Both the position numbers and the translations under genes were made by a program. 64,000 nucleotides of DNA, taken from positions 1 to 64,000 of the forward strand of contig JALHOJ010000008.1 of NCBI GenBank assembly GCA_022843045.1, given 5' to 3'. This document shows positions 10,967 through 13,900 of this stretch, piece by piece; positions within the stretch are counted from its first letter, which is position 1; each line of letters opens with the position of its first letter. The stretch comes from Phycisphaerales bacterium. Lineage in GTDB: Bacteria; Planctomycetota; Phycisphaerae; Phycisphaerales; UBA1924. The notes beneath the pieces are model-generated. The model searched no databases. It had not been told where the DNA came from and saw only the letters and a program-made list of their open reading frames with translations.

Positions 10967-13900
10967 ATGTCCCAAACATCTACCAATCTCCCCGAGTTGC
11001 CCAAGGCCTACAAGCCCAGCGAGCACGAGGATCGCGTCTGGAACCAGTGGATCGCCGCGAAGGCGTTTCTCGCCGACCCGCAGCGGGTGCTGCGTGATCA
11101 TGCCAAGCCTTACGCCGTGTTCATTCCGCCGCCCAACGTCACGGCGGCGTTGCACCTCGGCCACGCCCTCAACAACACGATCCAGGACATCCTGGTGCGG
11201 GCCCATCGCATGCGCGGGTACGAGGCCCTGTGGATGCCTGGAACCGACCACGCCGGGATCGCGACGCAGGCGGTGGTTGAGAAGCGCGTGATGAAGGAAG
11301 AGAAGAAGCGCCGCAGCGACTTCCAGCGCGACGAGTTTGTCGCCAAGATTCAGGCGTTCAAGGACGAGTATGAGGCGGTGATCACGGGCCAGCTTCAGAA
11401 GATGGGCTGTTCGTGTGACTGGGATCGCCAGCGGTTCACGATGGACGAGCAGTGTGCGGCGGCGGTGCGCGAGGCGTTCTTCCGCTTGTTCAGGGCCGGC
11501 CTGATCTACCGCGGCAAGCGCCTCGTCAACTGGGACCCGGTCTTGCAAACCGCCGTCGCCGACGACGAGTGCTACGACGAAGAAATCGACGGGCACTTTT
11601 ACTACTTGCGGTACCCGCTCGTGCACGCGCTCGCGCTGGAGCCGGGCGCGACCCGGGCCGGCGCGGGCAAGGGCCACACCCACGAGATCGATCCCAAGCC
11701 CGTGACCTGGGACGAACTCGCCTCGCGCGGGTATCCCGGCGCGAATGACCACCCGGCGGACCAACAGGCGTGGATCACGGTCGCGACCACCCGCCCCGAG
11801 ACGTACCTCGGCGATACCGCCGTGGCGATCAATCCGCATGATCCGCGGGCCACCGCGCTGCGTGGGTTATTTGTCGAGTTGCCGCTGGTGGGCCGCGTGA
11901 TTCCCATCGTCGAAGACAGCTACGTGGTGCTGCCCGAGCGGTATGCGCGGAACGATGAAGAGAAGAACGACCCCAAGGCCAAGATGGCGACCGGATTCCT
12001 CAAGGTGACGCCCGCGCACGATCCCAACGACTATGAGATCGGTATGCGGCATGGCTTGCCGATGGTGAACATGATGGGGCCCGATGGGCGCGTGAGCGAC
12101 AAGCACGGCTGGTCGGACGTGGGCGACGCGCACCTGCTGGTGGGCCTGCCGCGTGAGAAGGCGCGGGCGAAGGTGGTGGAGGAGTTCAAGGCGCGAACTG
12201 TGGGGACAGAAAGCCTGTTTGAGGGCAGCAAGCCCACGCGGCACAGCGTCAAGCACAGCGATCGCAGCAAGGCGATCGTGGAGCCGTACCTGAGCGATCA
12301 GTGGTATGTGCGGGTGACGGATCCGCGGATGGCGCAGGCGGCGAATGCGGTGCTGAAGAAGGCATCGGGCACTGGGCATCAGGCATCAGGAGATACAGAA
12401 GGCGGCGTGACGTTCTTCCCTGAGCGATACGCCAAGACCTACGAAGATTGGCACAACGGCATCCGCGACTGGTGCATCTCACGGCAGTTGTGGTGGGGGC
12501 ATCGGATTCCGGTTTGGAGCGGGCATTCCACGGGTGGATGGCAAGATGATCCGAATGACATCGGTCATCGAATCAAGAAATGGCAAGCCGAAGGCAGAGT
12601 GCAGTTGCAGCATCGCGTTGTCGAGTTGGCGGACGCGCTTTCCAAGTCAAACCCCTCAGAGGATTCTTTTGAGAGTGTGTGTGTGCGCTCACTTGATGAT
12701 GCTGAGGTGATTCAAGCGCTGGAAACCAACGGCTTCCATCAAGACCCCGACGTCCTCGACACTTGGTTCTCCTCTGCCCTCTGGCCGCTCAGCACGCTTG
12801 GTTGGCCCGATCCCTCGAAGTTCAACCCGCAGATGAACGCCGGGCTGCTGGAGGCGTTCAATCCCAGTCAGGTGCTGTGCACCGCCCGCGAGATCATCAC
12901 GTTGTGGGTGAGTCGGATGGTGATGTTCAATGGGTACCTCAAGGCACCAGGCACTGGGCATCCGGCACTAGCAAAGCCCGACGAAACTTCTGACGCCTCT
13001 GCCAGTGCCCAGTCCCTCCTGCCCAGTGCCTCTTCCGTTCCTTTTCACCACGTCTTCATCCACGCCGTGATCCAGGACGGCGAAGGCCGCAAGATGTCCA
13101 AGAGCCTGGGCAATGGCGTTGATCCGCTGGACATCATCGCGACGCACGGGGCCGACGCGATGCGGTTCACGCTTTGCCACATGGCGACCAACACGCAAGA
13201 CGTGCGGATGCCTGTGAAGAAGGATCCCTCGGGCAAGAACACCAGCGAGAAGTTTGATCTGGGCCGCAACTTCGCGACCAAGCTGTGGAATGCGAGCAAG
13301 TTTGCTCTGAGCATGATCGGAGCAAGAGACGAAGAGACGAAGAGAAGTAGAGACGAAGTGGGGGCGGGGGGTGGCGAGACTTCGTCTCTCCGTCTCTCCG
13401 TCTCTCCGTCTCTTCTGGATCGCTGGATGCTCTCCCGGCTCGCCAGCGGCTTCGCCGAGGTCGAGCACGCCCTCGCCAACTACGAGTTCCACGAGTACGC
13501 CCAGTCGCTGTACGACCTGCTCTGGCGGGACTTCTGCGATTGGTACTTGGAGGGCGTCAAGCCCACCATCGCGCAGAGCCCGGCACAGCAAGCCGTGCTT
13601 GGCAACGCTCTCAGCGCGATCGTGCGGATGCTGCACCCGGCGATGCCGTATGTCACGGAAGTGATCTGGGAGCACTTGGGCAAGGTGAAGATCGCGCGCG
13701 TGGATGGCGTGCGGCTTACGCACGACGATCGCTTCGCGCTCGACGACACGCTCAAGAGCCGCGTCGCGACGGGGCTGCTCTGCCATCAGGCCTGGCCTCA
13801 CGTCTCCAAGGCGCTGCGCGATGAGGCGGCGGAGAAGACGTTTGATCGCATGCGATCCCTCGTCACGATGATCCGCGACGTGCGCGCGACGCATCAGGTC

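Follow-up and report, generated by a model that had tools for sequence, protein, structure and literature searches.

We analyzed a window of 64,000 nucleotides from the start of contig 8 of a Phycisphaerales genome (GenBank assembly GCA_022843045.1, 4.08 Mb in 147 contigs; G000). This window includes a gene for valyl-tRNA synthetase (valS, 10958..14296 on the + strand) that has three repeat elements within its reading frame. The gene is a single open reading frame (ORF) of 1112 amino acids, and the ATG at 10958 is probably its start. The protein scores 923.7 bits with the NCBIfam model for valine--tRNA ligase (PRK05729), whose cut-off is 704. It is the sole copy: we found no second, repeat-free valS in the genome, and the remaining matches to PF00133 (on contigs C18, C1, and C31) are other class I synthetases.

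We will call the three repeats D, E, and F. Element D (12362..12395, + strand) is a period-7 array of four GGCAYYR heptamers, which reads KASGTGHQASG and lies in the loop ahead of FFPERYAKTYEDW. It is a tandem repeat only, without a palindromic fold of its own (fold z = -0.08). None of 40 shuffles gave an equally good array, and a 25-bp exact copy of element D is found on contig C30, in frame within a different gene. Element E (12945..13036, + strand) is an imperfect palindrome with inverted arms of the GGCACTGG type; it reads KAPGTGHPALAKPDETSDASASAQSLLPSASS and lies between VMFNGYL and VPFHHVFIH. Its inverted-repeat score was equalled in 0 of 40 shuffles, and its RNA fold has an energy of -37 kcal/mol (z = -2.8). 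Element F (13321..13416, + strand) is another imperfect palindrome, with AGAGACGA / TCGTCTCC octamer arms around a G-rich center. It reads ARDEETKRSRDEVGAGGGETSSLRLSVSPSL, lies between LWNASKFALSMIG and LLDRWMLSRL, and has a stronger RNA fold (dG = -54.7 kcal/mol, z = -4.1). The in-frame repeats in valS are real, and chance is excluded.

We compared loop lengths across 50 relatives. At site E, the loop has 33 amino acids in the window's protein and 4–13 in most of the repeat-free relatives. At site F, it has 34 amino acids, and the relatives mostly have 14–25. The loop at site D has 25 amino acids, while repeat-free relatives range from 12 upward and about 30 is typical of the family, which suggests that element D exchanged the content of the loop more than it added length. 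ValS from Thermus thermophilus (1gax) can be aligned on both sides of all three inserts and lacks them. We did not find loops of equal length and without repeats at all three sites in a distant ValS, with Thermus as the sole comparison outside the order. We also modeled the window's ValS with AlphaFold (AF2), using an alignment of 32 sequences (mean pLDDT 82.8). Six segments of the model have pLDDT below 50, and three of these fall in D (residues 470–480), E (667–682), and F (801–809). Because of this low confidence, and given the placement and lengths of the loops, the inserts are most likely flexible loops. (Two more low-confidence loops, at residues 228–243 and 556–568, are repeat-free and might be additional tolerant sites.) A preliminary description of this DNA had reported three repeats in frame within one valS ORF, between conserved blocks and probably in surface loops. 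The ORF and the coordinates of the elements confirm the first point, the peptides it gave were right, and the placement is borne out by the alignments to 1gax and the 50 relatives. The surface location is supported by the AF2 model and by the relatives.

The same loops have been reused in related bacteria. Site E has 15 inserts of at least 20 amino acids, and in 10 of them the palindromic or tandem structure is significant. Different genomes have different repeats: within the window's own genus, G001 has AGTGACGA octamers and G003 has AATCGGC heptamers, and other examples include AAGTGGCA in G013 and GTAGGTCGGCTCTCCGAGCC in G023. This indicates that the repeats arrived separately or replaced one another, and that they do not descend from a single old loop.

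The repeats belong to families that are dispersed across the genome. The heptamer family of D and E, searched as (GGCAYYR)x3, forms 16 arrays, and the family of element F has about 56 related loci; shuffled genomes have 0 of either. We counted 336 elements of the 7/8-mer family, and 37 of them are in frame inside coding-like ORFs, of which some few may be spurious high-GC frames. In-frame elements are found in at least 20 genes other than valS, and most of the scanned hosts can be named by NCBIfam. These hosts are DnaE (two elements), GcvP, an RluA-family protein, LipA, RarA, RlmN, methylmalonyl-CoA mutase, Mfd, a carboxylase subunit, SucC (two), MetH, NadE, CarB (two), PcrA/UvrD, RadA, and DusB. 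IleS on contig C18 has one in-frame element as well. In-frame repeats are a genome-wide phenomenon, and valS is no special case. The preliminary description had suggested either strong tolerance with target preference or a functional role. Strong tolerance is supported. Target preference is in part: differing repeats have reused the ValS loops across the order, but the 37 in-frame elements are spread over many genes. We found no evidence for a functional role of the short inserts.

The length of the repeat units may matter for how these elements persist in genes. If the length of a tandem unit is not a multiple of three, then by arithmetic each of the three frames of a strand encodes one and the same peptide repeat. 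Because 7 and 8 are not multiples of three, a stop-free arm of such units stays open in whichever frame it is inserted. Several of the units lack stop codons on both strands. That this frame-independence might aid survival is offered only as an observation.

Other repeats lie elsewhere in the window. A strong palindrome from a separate family (10806..10900, no strand assigned; 31 related loci; fold energy -62.5 kcal/mol, z = -8.9) lies just 5' of the probable ATG of valS, and the valS frame is open through it. Positions 5084–5195 and 5290–5325 are intergenic and contain a long array of AGAGACGG octamers and its inverted partner, from the family of element F. At 34058–34230 on the - strand, a palindromic heptamer element with AATCCCG/AATGCCG arms is in frame and reads NAESRIPNA; its host, the ORF at 33639–35090, reads like a radical SAM enzyme of the menaquinone pathway. 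We also noticed a repeated motif, CNDIDFNNDGSLFDPVDIDAFLSVFSEGPC, at 38172–38372, which may represent a dockerin-like domain or a sorting domain at the C-terminus. The genome has 169 copies of its 16-mer TCGACTTCAACAACGA.

The closest known counterpart of D, E, and F is the protein-coding palindromes of Rickettsia (RPE), which have been known since 2000 (Ogata et al., as reported in PMC2229807). Like our elements, RPE and the similar palindromes of Wolbachia are palindromic repeats of about 100 bp that belong to several families, lie in frame in conserved protein-coding genes, and are probably tolerated at the protein surface (PMC2229807, PMC10969869). The repeats we describe likewise come from dispersed families, have a palindromic fold (E and F), and lie in frame in conserved genes, while homologues lack them. 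The short inserts are new protein-coding palindromes with a variant arm design. They differ from RPE in phylum, in sequence, and in their tandem 7/8-mer arms, which look unrelated to those of RPE. They also differ in having longer relatives that carry IVP or GxxExxY genes between similar arms.

These longer elements point to a candidate for the mobilizer. We know of no identified mobilizer for the Rickettsia palindromes. In this genome, all five IVP genes (23S_rRNA_IVP) and both of the GxxExxY genes that could be tested are flanked by inverted arms built like those of E and F. Inverted-repeat scores from flank to flank are 13–47 at these genes, as compared to 8.8 ± 1.8 at random places, and adjacent arrays in the genome are inverted in 80 of 94 cases. 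Neither E nor F contains an IVP gene; both are gene-less and about 100 bp long, and IVP genes sit only in longer elements elsewhere in the genome. We infer that E and F may be short forms of the IVP/GxxExxY elements, which is a lead and not proof, and that the IVP and GxxExxY genes are the best candidates for mobilizing them. A related arrangement is known from intervening sequences (IVS) in 23S rRNA, where an inverted-repeat element is associated with a gene for the S23/IVP protein, just as the IVP genes here lie between inverted arms. Unlike those IVS, the elements in this genome lie outside of rRNA, and the short forms would be translated within protein-coding genes. (Within the window, an inverted repeat at 8173–8353 has arms AACGCAGAGGAAGACAGAG that resemble those around the GxxExxY gene on contig C67.)

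In relatives, the D loop of ValS has been taken by something much larger. Roughly a dozen of the first 60 that we examined have a D loop that is 211–257 amino acids long or split by a match to a transposase. The long loops contain a complete, in-frame Y1 HUH transposase that is similar to RAYT (REP-associated tyrosine transposase, or TnpAREP). We built a profile (A1) from 15 embedded copies. The HUH histidines, W101, and N126 are invariant in these copies, and the tyrosine is present in 14 of the 15. When we scanned 151 genomes of the order with the RAYT profile, 21 of the 24 matches with at least 140 bits were in ORFs of 399–1517 amino acids. In two other genomes (G005, locus L042, and G043, locus L070), the D loop carries an unrelated, second type of Y1 transposase (YLITFTTYGTWLHGD), also in frame, which resembles class 3 TnpAY1 (PMC6006769). 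We considered a RAYT origin for D, E, and F as well, and rejected it: the embedded-RAYT profile had no match in the window's genome, and that genome's two Y1 genes have different repeats.

ValS is one of many hosts. Pfam shows Y1_Tnp flanked by host domains within one ORF for ValS, LeuS, RdgB, MiaA, AlaS, and PurH. For FabZ, the FabA-like domain scored on the N-terminal side only, and we matched the C-terminal side by eye. Pfam also identified an Eco57I-type methylase, a second site in LeuS, IleS (L274), another ValS (L248), and further genes as hosts. Across GTDB genomes, we classified the 80 best loci by reading their flanks: at least 58 are embedded, 15 stand alone, and 7 were left unresolved. 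The embedded loci include 23 in ValS, 12 in RdgB, 7 in IleS, 7 in PurH, and 9 in DUF1156-type methyltransferases. One of the loci belongs to a strain in culture, Desulfoferrobacter suflitae DRH4, and the DUF1156 form is also present in metagenome-assembled genomes from Elusimicrobia, Armatimonadota, and Acidobacteria. Among the public protein clusters listed, about 100 contain RdgB (PF01725) and span most of the fused query, and most of these also have PF01797. Some RdgB–RAYT fusions (P0001, P0053) are labelled “transposase” or “REP-associated tyrosine transposase” in the databases, which masks the housekeeping enzyme. In the open-access literature that we searched, we found no precedent for a RAYT inside a synthetase or RdgB.

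The embedded transposases are conserved. For the pairs of embedded RAYTs with estimable dS, dN/dS is around 0.1 (range 0.08–0.25), mostly no higher than in the host part. REP-like sequences were seen next to cassettes: the core on the N-terminal side is in a single frame relative to the host's codons in 32 of 37 cases and is never reversed, and its reverse complement on the C-terminal side is in a single frame in 28 of 28. Using one pattern, we found the core on both flanks in 20 of 93 loci; elsewhere, we saw other palindromes by eye. In three of the ValS copies, none of the 60 codons upstream of the RAYT could serve as a start, and therefore the transposase there could be produced only as part of ValS. 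We modeled one RdgB–RAYT fusion (L213, P0001; 404 amino acids) with AF2, using a shallow, six-sequence alignment (pTM 0.50). The model has two domains that are joined by disordered linkers. Foldseek matched it to HAM1/RdgB structures and to the TnpAREP–REP complex 4er8, which is the best match to a solved transposase (TM score 0.67, rmsd 2.7).

RAYTs group by host gene (23 changes, versus 67.6 in shuffles), yet those borne by ValS are spread over several clades, and one RAYT subtype is common to LeuS, ValS, and MiaA. On a tree of the ValS core (46 rows), the presence of RAYT requires at least 12 changes, of which 9 are forced by well-supported branches. Since 53 of 500 sets of shuffled labels were as low, the clustering is not clearly better than in shuffles, and the tree does not support the idea that RAYT-bearing ValS is a vertically inherited clade. 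Distances between RAYTs and between their ValS hosts are moderately correlated (Mantel r = 0.46). Such a distribution is what we would expect if the cassette were lost and regained several times, or homed into the same site. We also found an RdgB without RAYT that closely matches a RAYT-bearing RdgB, with 80% identity to one half of it and 69% to the other. And in one pair of RdgB–RAYT loci (L209 and L320), synonymous differences are fewer in the RAYT (pS 0.06) than in the host flanks (0.18–0.21), a pattern expected if the cassette had been exchanged recently.

We propose that D, E, and F are mobile repeats, small and non-autonomous, palindromic or tandem, from families dispersed in this genome. 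They would have landed in, or been swapped into, loops of ValS that can grow harmlessly, and they would be translated within the enzyme. Their survival could be explained by units that are stop-free in the frames used and by loops that lie between the catalytic blocks; the 7- and 8-mer arms would help, as a stop-free unit of these lengths is stop-free in every frame of its strand. Longer elements of similar arm design surround genes for IVP four-helix bundles or GxxExxY proteins, which are the candidate mobilizing system. In related lineages, the D loop holds a second type of element, a complete HUH transposase of the TnpAREP kind that seems to lie between inverted repeats resembling REPs. The entire length of this cassette is one open frame fused to the host gene, and the host enzyme may thus be the only, or the main, form in which the cassette is expressed, as one of its domains. 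These cassettes would be selfish elements that are fitted to in-frame life in the tolerant loops of housekeeping enzymes, living much as inteins do but without splicing. The data show the presence and frame of the elements, their families, their predicted disorder and recurrence, and the conservation of the transposase; we infer mobility, activity, and expression as fusions, and we think that the explanation as a whole is quite probably correct. Several points weigh against it. No target-site duplication has been shown, nor an exact empty site between near-identical genomes, and we read the translation of the inserts and fusions from the DNA alone. The arms vary in sequence among elements, so the link from E and F to IVP and GxxExxY elements rests on architecture. 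Also, the profile scan found no embedded RAYT in the window's genome, so the RAYT findings apply to relatives rather than to the elements in the window, and the REP frame counts are drawn from related, non-independent loci.

We considered other explanations for the short inserts. Perhaps these are ordinary low-complexity loops that grew in place by replication slippage: D is a single tandem array, and arrays of period 7 or 8 can be expanded in this way. However, slippage does not account for the inverted arms of E and F, for the same families at many unlinked places, or for unrelated repeats at the same site in sister species, and we consider it improbable. Even less likely is that the inserts are taken out of the transcript or of the finished protein, by excision of an RNA hairpin, by an intron, or by protein splicing. 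E and F do form strong hairpins, and the hairpins of 23S rRNA IVS are excised by RNase III (PMC4990558). But excision of an IVS leaves the RNA unjoined, which would ruin an mRNA; a search of valS for Rfam introns and ribozymes gave only sub-threshold microRNA noise; and all of the inserts are in frame and stop-free, neither of which excision would need. An adaptive role, such as extra contacts with tRNA or regulation, seems just as improbable as removal. Three inserts in one essential gene might hint at such a role, as might the repeated enlargement of ValS loops across the order, but the sequences of the inserts are not conserved among sister species, the inserts are disordered in the model, and the same repeats are found in many unrelated enzymes.

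For the RAYTs, the main alternative is that the domains in ValS, RdgB, and other hosts have been domesticated and serve the host, for instance by binding nucleic acids. This would fit with the strong purifying selection on RAYT, with the clustering of RAYTs by host gene, and with the many RdgB fusions. Still, we think that domestication is unlikely, as presence is patchy (at least 12 gains or losses in the 46 ValS rows, unclustered), a close RdgB without RAYT exists, a single subtype is found in LeuS, ValS, and MiaA, and the REP ends appear to be retained. As to the selfish reading, we see about an even chance that a class of RAYT-type HUH transposases has become adapted as in-frame passengers of loops in essential enzymes. 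Such a class would lack its own promoter, start, and stop; its REP ends would be coding in a fixed frame; the host would pay for its translation; and the short palindromes in the window would be its non-autonomous counterpart.

Known RAYTs, which are found with REPs or REPINs, share with the embedded cassettes an HUH-Y1 enzyme and, going by the loci where the core was seen on both flanks, may share REP-like inverted repeats on either side. But known RAYTs are stand-alone genes between REPs, while the cassettes are an in-frame part of ValS, LeuS, IleS, AlaS, RdgB, PurH, and others. In-frame REPs have been described inside DNA-repair and tRNA-synthetase genes (PMC3733652), as we see for our repeats, but those are 20–40 bp and GTAG/CGTC-tagged, and a whole RAYT in a synthetase was not described there. 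The reverse arrangement, in-frame REPs inside tnpAREP genes, is also known (PMC6006769). Inteins and homing endonuclease genes are similar in being in-frame selfish modules with recurrent sites in housekeeping genes and a patchy distribution. Unlike inteins, the cassettes have no protein-splicing (Hint) domain, as Pfam gives Y1_Tnp alone between the host domains; their module occupies a loop that the host can do without; and they have a Y1 HUH enzyme as nuclease.

In this order of Planctomycetota, protein-coding palindromes appear at genome scale and at recurrent sites, along with candidates for their mobilizers (IVP or GxxExxY genes, and RAYTs within host genes). How selfish DNA survives within essential coding genes thereby becomes a directly testable question. 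The in-frame RAYT cassette of the relatives is the surprising part and merits experiment. The inserts also reveal natural sites for domain insertion in aminoacyl-tRNA synthetases, and they carry a warning for annotation: a protein that is named “transposase” may also be the cell's RdgB.
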